Below are positions 5,634-19,260 of a stretch of 23,564 nt of DNA, one piece after another. A model generated the notes under the pieces. The model saw only the letters and a list, made by a program, of their open reading frames with translations. It ran no database searches and was not told where the DNA came from. The stretch's first letter is position 1. The number at the start of each line of letters is the position of its first letter. The stretch is from positions 1 to 23,564 of IMG/VR virus record IMGVR_UViG_3300030329_002471, one strand, 5' to 3'. Source of the stretch: a virus. Position numbers and translations under genes: made by a program.

Positions 5634-5890
5634 GCCGCGACGTACTCCTTGCCGTTAGTGATCGCCTCGTTCGCGGCGGTCATATCCTCAGAACCCCAGT
5701 CTTCAAGAGCAACCATAATTTCAAGATGTTCTACGTTTCTTGAAACGGTCTCTTTCCGTTCTTCGACTGACATATTCTCTTTATAAGCCGGGTCTGAATC
5801 AGTCCTGATGATGTCAATCAGGGAAACGGAGTGCCCCATTGCTTTGTAGTCTTGAGCCTTCTGCTCAGTGGTGCGTGGTTCTGCTGCCAT
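5630..5890 (-). CDS. Conserved-looking hypothetical protein downstream of the S74 fiber (86 aa)
   Basis: The gene starts at a TAATG overlap with the fiber stop and has a GGAG ribosome site inside the fiber's last codons. The 86-aa product is acidic and helical: EQKAQDYKAMGHSVSLIDI at 9-27, then ERKETVSRNVEHLEIMVALE in the middle and a tail with DMTAANEAITNGKEY. The 'ERKETV-RNVEHLE' helix and final 'I-GKEY' motif recall small proteins encoded right behind S74 fibers in other aquatic phages. It may assist fiber assembly or be a coat-side accessory, but that is inference from position. No membrane segment or cysteines. Confidence 0.65.
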   Translation of the reverse strand: MAAEPRTTEQKAQDYKAMGHSVSLIDIIRTDSDPAYKENMSVEERKETVSRNVEHLEIMVALEDWGSEDMTAANEAITNGKEYVAA

Positions 5891-8457
5891 TATATTTTCT
5901 CCTTGATCTCTTTGAGTTCTGCCGAAAGTTCCTGAATTGCCGTAACCAGTATTGGAATGATCGCCCCGGGAGCGACCCTCTGCCTACCATCAGCTTCGTC
6001 TTCTGACCACATGTCAAACCCGTCAGCTATTTCTGGATGCGCGTCAATGACGGCCTTAACCTCTTGGGCTATGAAACCGTGATTAGTTTTGTCGTTCATT
6101 TCGCGTTCTTCAGAATCTTCATAGGCAAAATGATCTTTCGGCAAATCTTTTTTCTTTTTCCAGTTGAAGGTTACGGGTCGCAAGTCATTGATGAAACTTA
6201 GCCCTGCCTGCTGATCTTCAATGTTTTCTTTGTAGCGAACATCTGATGGGGCGGTTATTGAAGTTGCACCGAAAGCAATTGCAGAGTCTGTTGATCCGTT
6301 TCCAAAGCACAAAGAGTCATCTGCGTTGCCCGTAACATCTCGCCCTAAAACGATTTGATTATTACTGTCGCCCGCACTGGTTCTAGCACTTCTACCAATG
6401 ATTACGTTGCTGTCTCCAGTCGTCAGAGGCACAGTGTCTTGACCTGCGTTACCTCCGATAATTACATTGCTCGTTCCGAGAGAGACGCTATATCCCGCCT
6501 GATATCCGAGAGCCACGTTATAAATATAAGTTGCAGAGGTCGTGTAATCGGAGGAATACAAGGCTCTGTAGCCAACAGCGGTACTGCCGTGGTCATCTTG
6601 ATTGGACCTTAGCGCGTTGTCGCCCACTGCGACGTTGTAAATACCCGTGGTATTGCTGGTCATGGCTCGATAGCCAATGGCCGTATTGTCTGCCGAAGTG
6701 GAAAGTTGCAGCGCAGCACCACCAACTGCCGTACTGTTAGAAGCTGTGGTCGAGCTTTCAAGCGACCCAAAGCCCAGCGCGGTATTACCCGCAGCGGCTC
6801 CTTTAATTTTTGAAAGAGCGTTTCTACCTACAGCAGTGTTGTAATCACCTGTCCCGGCTAAGTCAGCGGCCCCTCCACCAGATTGGTGGCCGACGTAGGT
6901 GTTGTAATCTCCGGTCGTTAATTCTTTTCCTGCTCTGCCCCCGATCATCACATTTTGAGTACCAGAGGTCAGCTTCTCCCCTGCAAAAGTCCCTAGAGCA
7001 TTGTTGTAATCCCCAACAACATTGCCATCCTCCATCGCATAGTTTCCGATGGCGACATTTTGCGTTCCTGTAGTGATGCCACGACCTGCGTGCATCCCTA
7101 CGCCTACGTTGTCCGTGTCCTCAGTTGAGGACTGATTTACTTGAAACAGGGCCTGCCAACCAACCGCAGTATTTCTATCGCCTACAGTATTTCCATTAAG
7201 AGCTTGAGTGCCGACCGCTGTGTTCATGTTCGACGTAGTAACCGCCTCTAACGCGCGGTAGCCGATGGCAACATTTTGATCGGATGTAGTAGAAGCCTCT
7301 CCTGCCTCTATGCCTATATAGACATTCTTGGTGCCAGTGGTGTGGTTTGTTCCAGAGGCGTAGCCCAAGAAGATGTTGTCTTCGCCGCTGGTAAGACGGG
7401 CACCTGCATCACTCCCTACGGAGATGTTATGAGTTCCTGTCATAGCCGCTGCTGAAGACCCTCCACCAGCGCGGTAACCTACTGCGATGTTGTTGCTGCC
7501 TGTGGTTATTTCGTCCGCAACAAGGCCACCGATCAAAACATTCTGAACCCCGGTGGTTAAATCGTACCCAGCACTAAGACCTATTGCCACGTTGTATGTA
7601 TCAACGTTGCTATCAGGGTTCGCGGCATAAAGAGCTTTGTGACCGATAGCTACGTTCCGGTCTCCGTTGACATTGCTTAAAAGAGCGAAAGAACCTATAG
7701 CAACATTAGTATCAGCAACCGTTGCTGCCTGAAGAGCTTTGTAGCCAACTGCTGTGTTGGAGTCTCCTGTTGTTGCTGCTGCTGCAGCCCCTCCCCCCGC
7801 TCTGTAACCTACGGCAGTGTTGTAGTTGCCAGTCGTAAGTTCCTTTGCAACTTCACCGCCTATTAGGGTATTAGCCGCTCCGACGGTTAGATCGTACCCA
7901 GCGTTATAGCCTAACGCCGTGTTGTACATATCTGCGTTAGAAGTAGGATTCATGGTGTAGAGAGACTGATAGCCCACCGCCGTATTTCTATCTCCAACGG
8001 TGTTGGCCGCAAGGGCCCTGCCACCTACAGCTATGTTCGTGTTGCCTGTAGTATTGGCAAGCAAAGCCGACTCGCCTACAGCAGTGTTAGACCCGCCGGT
8101 GGTTAGGGCGCTTAAAGCGTTGTGTCCAATTGCAGTGCTGCTATCAGACGTAGTGATTGCATCAAGCGCGTTTACGCCTAAAGCCGTGTTGTAAGAAGCG
8201 GAACTTGTGGTTCCAGAAGGATCAGAACCAATCCAGATTGAACTATTTTCTTTAAGCGCCGGGTCAAGGACGTTGAGTTCTGCTGCGGTTGATGTCACAG
8301 CGGTACTACCCAACGTTAGCGAACCCGAGAGCGTCACGTCCGTCAAACTGAGCGCGCCGTCGACCTTGACGCGCACATTCCCGCCAGATCGAACAGCGAT
8401 TAGGCTGTCGGTCGATTGAAGGCTAGAGCCATCACTAAGTTCTGAGATTTTGGACAT
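5890..8457 (-). CDS. Tail fiber with beta-roll repeats and S74 intramolecular chaperone
   Basis: This 855-aa protein is a probable trimeric receptor-binding fiber. Residues 1-70 form the attachment end and are followed by roughly 34 short repeats (about 88-715) on the pattern (N)TAVGY-AL-TTGD. This is the left-handed beta-roll repeat of YadA-head-like proteins, with Asn and Gly at fixed turns. From 738 on lies a Peptidase_S74 domain: S738-D-V-R-Y-K743 carries the Ser/Lys pair that cuts the chaperone off just before the Ser, followed by INDLRPVTFNWK, HGFIAQEVK and a C-terminal coiled coil (ILVTAIQELSAELKEIKEKI). The mature fiber would therefore end at about residue 737. AGGAGG precedes the start, and the gene follows the J-like gene by 1 nt. 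The repeat array suggests variable length and binding surface. Confidence 0.9.
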   Translation of the reverse strand: MSKISELSDGSSLQSTDSLIAVRSGGNVRVKVDGALSLTDVTLSGSLTLGSTAVTSTAAELNVLDPALKENSSIWIGSDPSGTTSSASYNTALGVNALDAITTSDSSTAIGHNALSALTTGGSNTAVGESALLANTTGNTNIAVGGRALAANTVGDRNTAVGYQSLYTMNPTSNADMYNTALGYNAGYDLTVGAANTLIGGEVAKELTTGNYNTAVGYRAGGGAAAAATTGDSNTAVGYKALQAATVADTNVAIGSFALLSNVNGDRNVAIGHKALYAANPDSNVDTYNVAIGLSAGYDLTTGVQNVLIGGLVADEITTGSNNIAVGYRAGGGSSAAAMTGTHNISVGSDAGARLTSGEDNIFLGYASGTNHTTGTKNVYIGIEAGEASTTSDQNVAIGYRALEAVTTSNMNTAVGTQALNGNTVGDRNTAVGWQALFQVNQSSTEDTDNVGVGMHAGRGITTGTQNVAIGNYAMEDGNVVGDYNNALGTFAGEKLTSGTQNVMIGGRAGKELTTGDYNTYVGHQSGGGAADLAGTGDYNTAVGRNALSKIKGAAAGNTALGFGSLESSTTASNSTAVGGAALQLSTSADNTAIGYRAMTSNTTGIYNVAVGDNALRSNQDDHGSTAVGYRALYSSDYTTSATYIYNVALGYQAGYSVSLGTSNVIIGGNAGQDTVPLTTGDSNVIIGRSARTSAGDSNNQIVLGRDVTGNADDSLCFGNGSTDSAIAFGATSITAPSDVRYKENIEDQQAGLSFINDLRPVTFNWKKKKDLPKDHFAYEDSEEREMNDKTNHGFIAQEVKAVIDAHPEIADGFDMWSEDEADGRQRVAPGAIIPILVTAIQELSAELKEIKEKI
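7432..7986 (-). repeat. Higher-order 110-residue (330-bp) duplication inside the fiber beta-roll
   Basis: Residues 158-232 and 268-342 of the fiber align without gaps, 110 residues apart. By eye 47 of 75 residues are the same, including a unique long turn (YTMNPTSNADMY at 167, YAANPDSNVDTY at 277) and a poly-Gly/Ala insert after AVGYRAGGG. A third, more diverged copy begins near residue 438 (FQVNQSSTEDTD) and a fourth trace near 634. The basic 16-17-residue roll repeats were evidently copied in blocks. Confidence 0.7.
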
Positions 8458-12388: not shown

Positions 12389-12978
12389 GCGATTACGTCC
12401 TCGATTGCCTCAATCGTGAATGACGATGCAATCGGACCGGGTGCGGTTGACCAGGAACTGATGGGCGTCGAAAGCCGAAAGATGCCAGTCGGCGACGACC
12501 TTGTGATCGCTGCATCGTCATCTGGCGCAGACCGAAGTTCTGGTGCAAATGCGATAGTGGCTGCGCCGTCTGATATCGTCGAATCCGCCGTCGCCATTTT
12601 CAGTTCGCCGTTGACGCTGAACAGATCGCCTGCGCGCATGGCGTAAGAACCGAGCCACCCCTTCGTCAGTAGACTGTTGCCAGTTTGATCGGCCCCATCG
12701 ACCAACGGTGTTCCCGAGCCATCAGCGCTCCGAATAAACGCGTGGTCAGTCAAATAGAAATTCTCGCTGAGTCCCTGAACGCGCGCGAGGAATGCCTGCA
12801 AGGTGCGACGCTGCGTCGTCGTTAGATTGTCGAACGTCAGCGAGACCTGCCACCTGTTACCGGTGCGCTGGCTGGTTTGAATCGCACCAGTAAGCGGCGA
12901 GATAAACTGCCGAGCATTGGTCATCAATCCCCAGGACTGCGAACTCGGCGTAATGCTTGGGAATGTCTGAGTAGCCAT
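12385..12978 (-). CDS. Minor tail / distal tail-like protein (197 aa)
   Basis: The first gene after the tape measure encodes a 197-aa protein starting MATQTFPSITPSSQSWGLMT, then QFISPLTGAIQTSQRTGNRWQVSLTFDNL and RRTLQAFLARVQGLSENFYL. This recalls small distal-tail proteins that close the tube and hold the tip, with 'SP-tG-QT-R-G-RW' and 'afla-l-G--n-F-L' motifs. The rest is beta-rich with many Ser, Thr and Asp. It starts by a 1-nt TGATG overlap with the tape-measure stop. Function is inferred from its place, the same as gp12 of the Rhodobacter gene transfer agent, although I do not see DUF2460 itself. Confidence 0.6.
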   Translation of the reverse strand: MATQTFPSITPSSQSWGLMTNARQFISPLTGAIQTSQRTGNRWQVSLTFDNLTTTQRRTLQAFLARVQGLSENFYLTDHAFIRSADGSGTPLVDGADQTGNSLLTKGWLGSYAMRAGDLFSVNGELKMATADSTISDGAATIAFAPELRSAPDDDAAITRSSPTGIFRLSTPISSWSTAPGPIASSFTIEAIEDVIA

Positions 12979-15377
12979 CAGAATCGACCTCGCGCCATCA
13001 AGTCTGCGATCTCTGCTCGCTGATTCCGAAGTTGAGCGGTGAAGAAGGCGCGATCCTCAGCGGTAGCGCCGCCGCTGATGTTGACGACCGGCGCGTAGTT
13101 CATGCCGTTACTAGCCATGTGCCGATTCGGGATAATCGTGCCGTTTTGACGCGGGACGAGTAGTTCCGGCCCTTTTTCTCCGACAATGTAAGGGACGCCT
13201 CCAGTTACTGGTCCGCCATGTTCTCGCGCCGGTAGATTTGCAAATCCGGCGACTTTCTTTGGAAGCGTCGAGTCTATCGTCGTGATGAGTCTCTCGACCG
13301 ATTCGCTCATTTTTGACGAAGACGACGTATCGCTAACTGATTTGAAATCACTTACCAGTCTCTCGACCGATTCGCTCATTTTTGACGAGGAACTCTTGCG
13401 AATCGCCTTGATGGCTTCGGTTGATTTTTTATTCGAGACGATGTGTCCGTTTTGACTTGGTACCAGTAGTTCCGGCCCTTTTTCGCCGACCAAATACGCG
13501 CGCCCTCCGGTGACGGGTCCGCCATTCGCGCGCTTGCTGAACATGGATCCCAGGTTGTAGAAAAACCCGCCATCAGCCTCGCCGCCCGAGCCGCCGCCCG
13601 AGCCGCCGAAGAGTTTCTCTAGTCCAGACATCAGCTTGCTTTTGAGCAGTTCCATACTCATTTGCTGCAGCGTGTCTGCAAACGAAGAAATCATCGCGTC
13701 TTTGCCGTCCGTCACCCCTGCAATCAATGAATCAGCAAGGTTCGAGCGCACGTTGTCCGCGGCGGCTTTGGCCTTGTCCTCGATGGCCGTCATGCCCTCG
13801 TCAATTTCCGGCGGGATCACCTGACCGGGTGCATCAGGCGACTGGAAGCGGTCAACGAAATTGCCGAGCGTATCCTCGAAGGCTTGCCCGGTGTCGGTGT
13901 TGAGTGTTTCACCGAGTTGGCGGCGAATGTTCTCGCCCATTTGCGCAAAAACGCCTTCGTGAAACGAATCAGCGTTGAGCGTTTCCGTCAGTTCGTCCTG
14001 AATGCCCTGACCCATGGACGCAAAGATCGGCTGTTGTGACGATTTTGATTCAAGCGCTTGCGTCATTTGACCGCGAATGTTTTGCGCCATTTTGTTGAAG
14101 ATTGATTTTTGGCTGGTAAAAAAATCGGAGCCGACTTTCACTTTTCCGACCGTAGGTGACCAATCGGTTGTCGCATCAATAAAGGGGACCTTCTTCGCGA
14201 GTTCGTTATAGCCGGCAATGATTTCGGAAGAGAACGTGTTCCACTTTTGCAGAGATGAATTGATGAACTCGCCCGCTGCAGTTCCCACGCTGTCCATGAC
14301 CCCGAATACCGATTCGGCCATGTTCACGAAACCTAGGCGAATCGACAGGATTACGGTTTTGAATCCCGAGGATAAGTCGTGCATTGCAACAGAAGCGGAT
14401 TCCGCGATATTGACGAAACCTAGGCGAATCGAAAGCATCACGGACTTAAAGACGGTTGATAAGTCGTGCATCACGCGAGACGTCGACTCGGCCATGTTGA
14501 CGAAACCGAGACGGATCGACAGCACAATCACGTTCAGACCTCGCATAACGTCGCCCAGGCCATGAAACGCACGAGCAACGAATCCCGCCGCCTTCGATCC
14601 GATATCTCCGAAGCCTTCAGTCGTCAGCGCTAGATGCGTGACCCAGTTGCTCGCTGCCTCGATCATGGGAGAAAAAGAGACAGCCAGCTGGTTGCCGATG
14701 CCCGTGAACACGCCGGTCATCCTCGACGCTGCGTCGTTCGCCTGCTCGATTTTCGCCGCATCCACACGAGACAGTGATATGCCCAGTTGATCGGCTTCAC
14801 TCATCATCGCGCGAAGTGCATCGCCACCCTGGCCAAGTGTGTTGACCAGCGCGACGCCTTCCGAGTCAAACAGCTTCATCGCAAGCCGCACGCGATCAGC
14901 CTGGCTCTCAACGCCAGCCATCGAGTCGGCCACCATGGCCATCTGCTCGTCCAATGGCAAATTTTTCAGCGCCTCAGCGTCAATGCCGAGTTCTTTGAGC
15001 GCGTTTTTTGCTTCGCCGGTGCCCTGGGCAGCTTCAGCGACTCGGCGCGTCATACGCTGCAGCGCCATATTCATTGTGTTAGTACTGACGCCAGTAAGCT
15101 CGCCCGCATGCTGCAAACCCGCTAACGCTTCTGTAGTGGCGCCTATCTTGTCAGCGGTCTTGGCGAGATTATCGATAACCTGCATTCGCATGCCGACAAA
15201 CGCTGCGCCAGCTGCACCCGCTGCCAGTGCCGCTGCAGTACCGATCTTTGCGAACCGACTGGCTGCGCCGGCAATGCCTGCGCCGAGCTTCTTCAATCTG
15301 CGGTTGAGACTTTGAAACGCTCGAGCGGTGTTGTCTTTCGCGAAAAGAGAAAGGACTGTTTCGTACGTGCTAGCCAT
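12978..15377 (-). CDS. Tape measure protein
   Basis: This 799-aa protein sets tail length and travels through the tube at infection. It starts with a helical, basic N-terminus (YETVLSLFAKDNTARAFQSL) and an Ala/Gly-rich hydrophobic stretch (33-66), followed by a conserved helical region with ADKIGATTEALAGLQHAGE (75-93) and MKLFDSEGVALVNTL. Three 29-residue repeats carry LSIRLGFVN (286, 315, 344). Two C-terminal copies of GGPVTGG--Y-VGEKGPELLVP (619 and 721) flank a short doubled SSSSKMSESVERL (662 and 685). At 1.5 Angstrom per helical residue, 799 residues give a tail of at most about 120 nm. Its ATG lies inside the last codons of the gpGT frame. It is the longest gene of the tail block after the fiber and J-like genes. 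Confidence 0.93.
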   Translation of the reverse strand: MASTYETVLSLFAKDNTARAFQSLNRRLKKLGAGIAGAASRFAKIGTAAALAAGAAGAAFVGMRMQVIDNLAKTADKIGATTEALAGLQHAGELTGVSTNTMNMALQRMTRRVAEAAQGTGEAKNALKELGIDAEALKNLPLDEQMAMVADSMAGVESQADRVRLAMKLFDSEGVALVNTLGQGGDALRAMMSEADQLGISLSRVDAAKIEQANDAASRMTGVFTGIGNQLAVSFSPMIEAASNWVTHLALTTEGFGDIGSKAAGFVARAFHGLGDVMRGLNVIVLSIRLGFVNMAESTSRVMHDLSTVFKSVMLSIRLGFVNIAESASVAMHDLSSGFKTVILSIRLGFVNMAESVFGVMDSVGTAAGEFINSSLQKWNTFSSEIIAGYNELAKKVPFIDATTDWSPTVGKVKVGSDFFTSQKSIFNKMAQNIRGQMTQALESKSSQQPIFASMGQGIQDELTETLNADSFHEGVFAQMGENIRRQLGETLNTDTGQAFEDTLGNFVDRFQSPDAPGQVIPPEIDEGMTAIEDKAKAAADNVRSNLADSLIAGVTDGKDAMISSFADTLQQMSMELLKSKLMSGLEKLFGGSGGGSGGEADGGFFYNLGSMFSKRANGGPVTGGRAYLVGEKGPELLVPSQNGHIVSNKKSTEAIKAIRKSSSSKMSESVERLVSDFKSVSDTSSSSKMSESVERLITTIDSTLPKKVAGFANLPAREHGGPVTGGVPYIVGEKGPELLVPRQNGTIIPNRHMASNGMNYAPVVNISGGATAEDRAFFTAQLRNQRAEIADLMARGRF
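14277..14534 (-). repeat. Three 87-bp (29-aa) tandem repeats in the tape measure gene
   Basis: Residues 282-367 contain three copies at an exact 29-residue spacing: VIVLSIRLGFVNMAEST, SVMLSIRLGFVNIAESA and TVILSIRLGFVNMAESV, joined by VMHDLST/AMHDLSS linkers. The match is also clear in DNA (ACGAAACCTAGGCGAATCGA in two copies). If helical, one unit would add about 4.3 nm, close to one tail-tube ring. Confidence 0.8.
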
Positions 15378-15848
15378 TGTCCTCTTCCCTAATTTTGAAA
15401 TACGCCAACCACCCGAGCCATTCTCGGTGGTCTAACTCATTAATCTCTGCGACCGTCTTGTGCAGGTGTTCTGCAAGTTGGAATCTCGCAAACAAGCTAG
15501 GGTCGCTTCTCAGTTTCCCAGCGCGTCATCCTCGGTCGGCGTGTCCTCGTTGATGACTCCGACGATCCGCGCCAGCACATCGGGATCAACCGACCGCATT
15601 AACTCCGTGCGCTCTGCCTTGCGAAACAGCGGCGTGCCTTCCTCATCGACCAAGCGGTAAATAAGCGTCAGCACCATGGCTTCCGCCGATTTCCCACTGT
15701 TCGCCAGTTCCATCACCTCTCCCAGTCGGAGCAGCGATATGGCTGGCTTGATGTAGACGGTCACACCCCACTCAGGAACCTCAAGTGCGCGCGGCTCCGC
15801 GTCCAACTTTGCGCGATAGTGCTCCTGCGCTTTTTGTAACAAACTCAT
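15370..15848 (-). CDS. Tail assembly chaperone gpGT-like, -1 frameshift fusion
   Basis: After the heptamer G-GGA-AAC a -1 shift continues for 47 more codons to TAG at 15370-15372, giving a 159-aa product. The extension starts LRSDPSLFARFQLAEHLHKT and ends with DHREWLGWLAYFKI and REEDNG. The Trp-rich 'EW-W-AYF-I' helix is typical of the T part of gpGT. The frame has no ATG start before it, fills the otherwise empty 132 nt between gpG and the tape measure, and ends inside the tape-measure start (ATGGCTAG). In lambda the G/GT ratio set by this shift matters for tail assembly; here the shift is inferred from sequence. Confidence 0.85.
15510..15848 (-). CDS. Tail assembly chaperone, gpG-like (unshifted product)
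   Basis: This 112-aa protein is the first half of the tail assembly chaperone that keeps the tape measure soluble. It starts MSLLQKAQEHYRAKLDAEPRA, contains VYIKPAISLLRLGEVMELA and a helical C-terminal half (TLIYRLVDEEGTPLF, DVLARIVGVI), and ends in an acidic tail (NEDTPTEDDALGN). It lies between tail tube and tape measure, as lambda G does. GGGGG precedes the ATG. Its last codons form a slippery heptamer immediately followed by TGA, which allows a fraction of ribosomes to make the longer gpGT form (separate entry). Confidence 0.85.
   Translation of the reverse strand: MSLLQKAQEHYRAKLDAEPRALEVPEWGVTVYIKPAISLLRLGEVMELANSGKSAEAMVLTLIYRLVDEEGTPLFRKAERTELMRSVDPDVLARIVGVINEDTPTEDDALGN
15513..15519 (-). 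promoter_or_regulatory. -1 ribosomal frameshift slippery heptamer
   Basis: On the - strand the sequence G GGA AAC (zero frame) is followed directly by the TGA of gpG. It fits the X-XXY-YYZ rule and differs by only the last base from the lambda G-GGA-AAG site. Confidence 0.85.
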
Positions 15849-15869: not shown

Positions 15870-16253
15870 TTAGATCGTCGCCGTCACAAGAGATCCGGTG
15901 CCGGTGCAGCTGAAACTGACTTCGAGCATCCCATCGAACGAACTGCTAGTGCTGACCGACGTAACCAAAGCCGTGCCGGAGTACTTGGTGCCTGCCGACG
16001 TCCCCTCCGGATATAGAGTCAGGGAGACCGACGCGCCTGCGGTTAGTGCATCTTGAGCAGTGGAATCGTCATCCCAGTAGGCGTCAACGCTGGCAGACCA
16101 GGAAGCTAATCCCACTTGATACGTGCGAGCGGCATCGCCCATCACGCTGTCCTCAATCGTGTCCGCGGTGCTTTCGAGCGACCAGCTGCGGATTTCTGCA
16201 ACCGCATCTGACCCCACATGTACGGTGCCGTCGCTGCCTCTATGATTCGCCAT
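15870..16253 (-). CDS. Major tail tube protein
   Basis: This 127-aa protein should form the stacked rings of the tail tube. It starts MANHRGSDGTVHVGSDAVAE and has the typical run of strands: IRSWSLEST, an acidic IEDSVMGDAARTYQVGL loop, WSASVDAYWDDD, SVSLTLYPEG and LEVSFSCTGTGSL. It resembles short TP901-1/gene-transfer-agent-type tube proteins rather than the 246-aa lambda gpV with its Ig domain. AGGAGG (16263-16268) sits 9 nt before the ATG, the strongest ribosome site in this block, as expected for a high-copy protein. It lies upstream of gpG and downstream of a 59-codon gene with which it overlaps by 14 nt. Confidence 0.85.
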   Translation of the reverse strand: MANHRGSDGTVHVGSDAVAEIRSWSLESTADTIEDSVMGDAARTYQVGLASWSASVDAYWDDDSTAQDALTAGASVSLTLYPEGTSAGTKYSGTALVTSVSTSSSFDGMLEVSFSCTGTGSLVTATI

Positions 16254-17421: not shown

Positions 17422-19260
17422 TTACCCATCGTTGCCGACGGCGAACGACACTGCGTGGCGTACAGCAACGTCGACGCTTTGCAGGGCGACGATCCTCTGC
17501 GTACCCGAAGTTGCATGACTTGACGTGTCTACGATGATGTCGACACCGCTGCCGAAAAAGCCCACCAGGCAGTCTGCAAAGTTGCCAAAATACATATTCC
17601 CGGCACTGGCTTGGGCGCTGACGATGGCGTTGTAGCCGGCAATCGATCCGTCATTCTCGACCACGAACTGAGCCGTGTTAGTGGCTTTTTCCGTCGTCTT
17701 CAGAGCGCCATACATTGCCGGAGGCACGATGTAGCTCAAATTTCCGAGCAACGCGTTGTCTTCGCTCACGGCTGTTTGCAACGTCACCACCTCGGCGAAC
17801 GTCGGATTCGCAGCGGCGAAGTTCGTCACAGTGTTGACGCCTGTCTGATTCAGGATGCCGGTCGGCTGACCAGAACTACCTGAACCTTCCAGTGCAGCCT
17901 TGTCGATAGCGATGGCAATCGCAGTGGTGAGATCGTCGCGGATCAACCGGTCGACGTCTTCGCTTGATTGAATTAATAGGTCTCGTGTCACATCTGTATA
18001 TGCGCCAAGTGTCTTCATAGAAAGTGAAACCGTGGCGAGCGTCATTTCACTCTCGCTCGTCGCCCCACCTTCAGAGCTTACCCAGCCGGCAGAAGCGCCA
18101 GCGGATTTGCGCGGGATCTTCACATCACCGCTCAAGCCGGTCAGCGTGGTAGCACCTGCGGCCATCACCGACGATGCATTTCGCAAAGCGTCGATGAACT
18201 GATCTCCGCGGTAGTCGTCGGTAATGATCGCCGAATCGTCCGAACTGTTCATATCCCGCACAAGTACCGAATGCGGCATCAGGACGCCCTGTGCGGCTCT
18301 GCCGGATCGTTGGGCGACAGCTTCAGAGACCTCAAACTCATACGCAGCGGCTTCCTGCGCACGTCGGTCCGACGGATTCACCATTGCGCTGATGGCACGC
18401 GCGAGATTGAAGCGCTTCTTGTCTTTTGCGGACAGATCAATGTCTGCATCGTTCGCAGCAACGAGTGCCTGCGTTTCGATCTTCGTCAGAAGGGCGTCGC
18501 GGAATGCCTCGACCTGCTGTCCGGCCTGGATGGCCTCGCGAGCCATGTCGACCTGGTTGTGACGAGCGCCGAGTTCGAGAATCTGCGCGACCTGTTTCTG
18601 TGCTGCTTTCTGCGCATCGGCCAGGGCTTCAGCGCGGACAGCGTCCATATCGATTGCGTTGTTGTCTTCAGCCACAATGGCCTCCGTGTGTTGTGTTTCA
18701 GGTGTGGTAATTTCTGTTTGATTACTGCGACCGACGCCAACGATGTCACTCGTGTCTGCCGGGATACTTACAAGGCTGGCCTCAAGGGGTCGCCATCGGG
18801 TCGCGACAAAATCGTCGCCGTTTCCTTGCCGTTCAAGCTTGTCGATGCTGTAGCCGACCGATATATTCGTGCGGATTCCGTCTTCGACATCTCTCAAAAT
18901 GCTGGTGGCTAACTCACCTCGTCCAAGGCGAGCCGTCGCGCGGAGTCGGCGCGCTTCTCCATCCAGCTTCACGCTCTCAATGACCCCGATCTGCTGACTG
19001 GGATCGTGATCCAACAACAAAGGCGCACGACCGCTGGAAAGGAACTCCAGGTCGATAGCGGCTTCGCTGTGTTCTAGGATTTCGTTGCCAAAACTGCGCG
19101 CGACCGGTTGCTCGCTGCTGATCGACATCTCGATGCGTCGCGCCTCAACGTCAACGCCTCGCGGCTTGATCTCAGCCAGCCGGTGCGTCAGCGTCGCGGT
19201 CATGTCTCGCGCCTCGGCTTGCTCGTCAGTCTGGATTTCAACGGTTTGTGGTTGTGTCAT
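17422..19260 (-). CDS. Prohead protease-major capsid fusion, HK97 fold
   Basis: One 612-aa frame contains both maturation protease and capsid. Residues 22-180 match the HK97-type prohead protease: RSFGNEILEHSEAAIDLEFL, the catalytic-His motif LLLDHDPSQQIG (H85), IRTNISVGYSI and EASLVSIPADTSD with the likely nucleophile S162. A linker with long charged helices (200-310), the place of the delta/scaffold domain, follows. From about 325 an HK97-fold capsid protein can be read: DDYRGDQFIDALRNASSV, KIPRKSAGASAGWVSSEGG, RDLLIQSSEDVDRLIRDDL, ALEGSGSSGQPTGIL and the C-terminal FGSGVDIIVDTSS. Processing after the scaffold-like part would free the mature capsid subunit of about 290 residues. AAGGAGA precedes the TAATG start. 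No frameshift separates the two parts. Confidence 0.88.
   Translation of the reverse strand: MTQPQTVEIQTDEQAEARDMTATLTHRLAEIKPRGVDVEARRIEMSISSEQPVARSFGNEILEHSEAAIDLEFLSSGRAPLLLDHDPSQQIGVIESVKLDGEARRLRATARLGRGELATSILRDVEDGIRTNISVGYSIDKLERQGNGDDFVATRWRPLEASLVSIPADTSDIVGVGRSNQTEITTPETQHTEAIVAEDNNAIDMDAVRAEALADAQKAAQKQVAQILELGARHNQVDMAREAIQAGQQVEAFRDALLTKIETQALVAANDADIDLSAKDKKRFNLARAISAMVNPSDRRAQEAAAYEFEVSEAVAQRSGRAAQGVLMPHSVLVRDMNSSDDSAIITDDYRGDQFIDALRNASSVMAAGATTLTGLSGDVKIPRKSAGASAGWVSSEGGATSESEMTLATVSLSMKTLGAYTDVTRDLLIQSSEDVDRLIRDDLTTAIAIAIDKAALEGSGSSGQPTGILNQTGVNTVTNFAAANPTFAEVVTLQTAVSEDNALLGNLSYIVPPAMYGALKTTEKATNTAQFVVENDGSIAGYNAIVSAQASAGNMYFGNFADCLVGFFGSGVDIIVDTSSHATSGTQRIVALQSVDVAVRHAVSFAVGNDG

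Follow-up and report, generated by a model that had tools for sequence, protein, structure and literature searches.

The window analysed here is a stretch of 23,564 nucleotides that forms a fragment of a virus record (IMGVR_UViG_3300030329_002471). Its genes for head closure (PF05354), tail terminator (phrog_4204), tail tube, G/T and tape measure proteins follow the usual order. The G gene sits directly between two neighbours that were identified by Pfam and PHROG profiles, namely the tail tube (major tail) protein upstream at 15870..16253 on the minus strand (PF06199 Phage_tail_2, 4.8e-07; phrog_1407), and the tape measure protein at 12978..15377 on the same strand (phrog_9483 tail length tape measure, 9.2e-83). 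In the translation of the tape measure gene, a segment with ILSIRLGFVNMAES appears roughly three times at 14220-14560 (minus strand). Elsewhere in the window, a single 612-aa ORF joins prohead serine protease to major capsid protein (17422-19260, minus strand; PF04586 and PF05065), and a tail fibre-like protein contains many repeats resembling one another and carries a C-terminal S74 (endosialidase-type) chaperone domain (5890-8457, minus strand). A host search in genome contigs found no relative.

The G gene itself (15848-15510 including its stop, minus strand) encodes a zero-frame product of 112 aa ending in DALGN (15513..15848, with the TGA at 15512-15510). We assign this product as a gpG-like tail assembly chaperone on the basis of the ORF and a match to phrog_344 (tail assembly chaperone) at 1.3e-10. 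Pfam gave no family above the cut-off for the G half, PF16459 appearing only below it; an NCBIfam search returned no match and a PDB sequence search with G no credible one. The AlphaFold2 model of the G protein has a mean pLDDT of 87.6.

The final codons of the G gene are CTG GGA AAC TGA, so that the heptamer GGGAAAC (15519-15513, minus strand) lies in the X_XXY_YYZ phase, as G_GGA_AAC, and touches the stop. An earlier note on this DNA, made from the sequence alone, had reported a slippery heptamer followed by TGA at this position; we confirm both, in phase, and the coordinates it gave are correct, although it left the minus strand unstated. It was equally right about the coordinates and peptide of the extension in the -1 frame, a T half of 47 codons (15513-15373, stop TAG at 15372-15370, minus strand) that encodes LRSDPSLFARFQLAEHLHKTVAEINELDHREWLGWLAYFKIREEDNG and that we recognise by its homologs, purifying selection and profile matches. 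The first T codon is CTG, whose C is shared with the heptamer, and at its other end the T half shares 8 nt with the start of the tape measure gene (ATG at 15377). The earlier note's statement that it lacks a start codon is not quite exact, since T codon 7 is an in-frame TTG (about 15495-15493). Across the window's main ORFs there are 11 in-phase X_XXY_YYZ heptamers (Y = A/T) in 6718 codons, or ~0.0016 per codon, and the GGGAAAC of the G gene is the one among them that lies near a stop. The pattern RRRAAACTRR occurs a single time in the 23.6 kb record, at the cassette.

Three scans of IMG/VR with the fused proteins yielded 145 further loci, of which L152 was left out of the count because it matched in the T half only, leaving 144 for analysis. 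All 144 place T in the -1 frame, and their heptamer, A_AAA_AAC in 110 relatives and G_GGA_AAC in 34, runs straight into the G stop. The query patterns were protein stretches inside G or T that did not require the heptamer, so it was not selected for by the search; the one junction pattern among the queries cannot match a frameshifted gene. The last bases of the G gene, compared over 124 distinct G genes, are always GGGAAAC or AAAAAAC, even though GGA makes up no more than 19% of Gly codons and AAC 44% of Asn codons in these genes. A search with the T half recovered its counterpart in Roseobacter phages CRP-406, 811, 821, 822, 823 and 831 (46-50% identity), with weaker matches in Streptomyces, Sinorhizobium and Pelagibacter phages. 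In each named phage that we read, the G gene ends in an in-phase A_AAA_AAC or G_GGA_AAC and the T half follows in the -1 frame. The extension thus has homologs in related phages, as the reading of the earlier note demanded, and each relative that we found keeps it at the corresponding position. In CRP-406, CRP-811, CRP-823 and DSL-LC06 an unannotated gap takes in all or part of the T half. We also observed that the deposited annotations of Dinoroseobacter phage R4C (L156), CRP-406 (L003), 823 (L004) and 811 (L005) are without it, an omission that would be simple to put right.

Comparison of the window with the relative L100 over the T frame gives a pS of 0.40 and a pN of 0.07, the differences numbering 3, 2 and 14 by codon position and thus falling mostly at third positions. 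Pooled over 28 non-overlapping pairs, the T-frame dN/dS is ~0.16. These substitution patterns indicate that the T frame is under purifying selection. Both other frames hold stops in all 107 distinct T regions.

Profile searches bear out the suggestion that the extension is related to gpT. Lambda gpT matches phrog_337 at 4.7e-07 and so do 20 of 25 T halves (best 1.5e-07), which by these matches places lambda gpT and the T halves in one PHROG family. The window's own T half matches phrog_337 weakly (E 0.013), and the T profile set against lambda gpT gives an E of 3e-4 but a probability of 38%. The T profile aligns strongly to the T half of the Rhodobacter phage RcRhea and the G profile aligns to RcRhea G; profile comparison of G with lambda G detected no similarity.

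RcRhea, RcCronus and RcSaxon (Rhodobacter phages, Cronusvirus; phrog_16513) share with the window both the gene order and a G_GGA_AAC that touches TGA. RcRhea carries an annotated joined CDS with a -1 frameshift at the identical GGGAAACTGA, and this frameshift has been reported (PMC4882933). Both halves of the Rhodobacter family align to the window's family by profile; phrog_16513 against the window T half alone gives an E of 0.2, and it represents a distant sequence from a different phage lineage. The cassettes of the six CRP phages named above and of DSL-LC06 resemble that of the window in having the T half in the -1 frame, but their heptamer is A_AAA_AAC. Lambda gpG/gpGT is like the window in lying between the tail tube and tape measure genes, in its -1 frame, in its G_GGA_AAR/C-type heptamer and in a T half belonging to phrog_337, whereas its T is 144 aa and its heptamer, GGGAAAG, lies 15 nt before the G stop. 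The likeness to lambda drawn in the earlier note therefore stands for GGGAAAG, while its statement that lambda uses this at the same place is only approximate. The corresponding distance is 0 in the window, 3 nt in phi3LM21 and 36 nt in Dryad, and stop adjacency is not kept by all more distant phages. A stop touching the heptamer is the one unusual trait of the cassette, and is common to its near relatives.

We are highly confident that the cassette is a lambda-type G/GT tail assembly chaperone with a -1 frameshift; the gpGT-type reading of the earlier note is supported by the in-phase heptamer, the -1 frame and the T-frame selection in relatives. This is a well-known mechanism among long-tailed phages, and for the exact site there is an annotated precedent, as attested by the RcRhea annotation, by a 2016 review covering the G/GT mechanism and its wide conservation (PMC5009743) and by sites tested by others, two phage tail chaperone sites having shown 6-7% shifting (PMC3711429). 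The haloarchaeal virus HCTV-1 has G_GGA_AAC as a documented G-T shift site, and the shift site of HCTV-2 is A_AAA_AAC (PMC5009743). In E. coli, A_AAA_AAC is far less shift-prone than A_AAA_AAG (PMC5009743), so the efficiency of an AAC heptamer in the window's host is uncertain. We infer that most ribosomes would make the 112-aa gpG-like protein and terminate at TGA, and that a minority would slip one base back with their tRNAs on GGA-AAC and re-pair on GGG-AAA. Slipped ribosomes would no longer read the stop and would add 47 residues to make a GT-like protein of 159 aa. If the analogy with lambda holds, the tape measure protein may be bound by the G part and the tail tube protein recruited by the T part, and the relative amounts of the G and GT forms would be expected to matter.

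Alternatively, the T half might be a separate small protein, made either from an internal start, such as the T codon 7 TTG, or by translational coupling at the G stop. The window does have that TTG in frame, and an ATG, GTG or TTG occurs before T codon 15 in 42/80 distinct T halves; however, 38/80 have no such codon up to that point, and since they lack a start before the conserved core, internal initiation cannot be the general route. Furthermore, conservation of T begins with the codon immediately following the heptamer (LxxDP), ahead of the TTG, and a separate protein gives the invariant heptamer no reason to persist. We consider this explanation very improbable, and give no greater credence to fusion of the halves by transcriptional slippage on the A/G run in place of ribosomal slippage. 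Runs of 6-7 A in the A_AAA_AAC relatives could serve as a substrate for RNA polymerase slippage, but the GGGAAAC of the window has runs of three only, shorter than known polymerase slippage needs, and both heptamer types keep the ribosomal X_XXY_YYZ phase in all cases. Least credible of all is that T is left over from a broken gene, or that a sequencing or assembly error interrupts a continuous one. Although this is a metagenomic contig in which a single base would restore one frame, the idea is already refuted by conservation, 144 independent metagenomic contigs as well as isolated phages having the same frame relation and heptamer, and it is opposed by the purifying selection on the T frame.

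For the proposed -1 ribosomal frameshift, candidate stimulators were considered on both sides of the heptamer. The MFE fold of the window contains a 6-bp stem (GCGACC/GGTCGC) that begins 6 nt past the heptamer, with z between -1.6 and -3.2 according to the stretch folded; L100 retains the stem and L002 part of it, and the raw pair count is 3.62/6 compared with 1.3-2.3 for slid partners. A weighted scan against column composition showed almost no excess except at one column, so the pairing follows from coding constraints and we dropped the stem as evidence. The downstream mRNA folding to which the earlier note had pointed is, in the window, explained in this way, and a downstream stimulatory RNA structure is unsupported for the window itself. 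Among 42 representatives, compared against synonymous recodings with statistics that ignore phylogeny, fold stability after the heptamer averages z -1.33 in A_AAA_AAC members against -0.42 in control stretches, and z +0.34 in G_GGA_AAC members (p = 0.0007 between the heptamer groups). On these predicted folds, a downstream hairpin seems to be selected in A_AAA_AAC and not in G_GGA_AAC members, and stimulators may differ between the two types of heptamer. The folding difference is located at T codons 3-14, for example in L004, L025, L046, L114 and L116.

On the upstream side, a Shine-Dalgarno-like GAGGA (15529..15533, minus strand) lies 9 nt before the heptamer and is a candidate stimulator; the published spacing for -1 stimulators is 9-14 nt (PMC5009743). 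In the pooled set GAG is favoured over GAA before the heptamer (69:17 against 162:252). With one representative per cluster the Shine-Dalgarno-like effect is weak (mean z -0.30 for the A type and -0.12 for the G type), and within the G_GGA_AAC group a GAGGA-type signal shows no excess over synonymous recoding.

Published shift sites on average stand further from the stop than does the heptamer of the window, at a mean distance of 26 nt in the SEA-PHAGES set and 36 nt in the Xu set (PRFect, PMC10274946), and a plant virus with a stop 3 nt from its shift site illustrates that nearby stops can matter (PMC5009743). If the stop is a functional part of an N_NNA_AAC signal, the G:GT ratio could depend on how release factor and slippage compete at a stop-limited site, rather than solely on the heptamer and RNA structure; A_AAA_AAC members would then add a downstream hairpin, and G_GGA_AAC members, including the window, would do without. 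We offer this as a tentative proposal that we think somewhat doubtful.

What is new here is a further member of a conserved recoding site, in a mostly uncultured phage group. A T half overlooked by annotation is present in many alphaproteobacterial and uncultured phages, and the stop-abutting heptamer, invariant among the relatives recovered, makes this a simple system in which to ask whether the speed of termination tunes bacterial -1 frameshifting.
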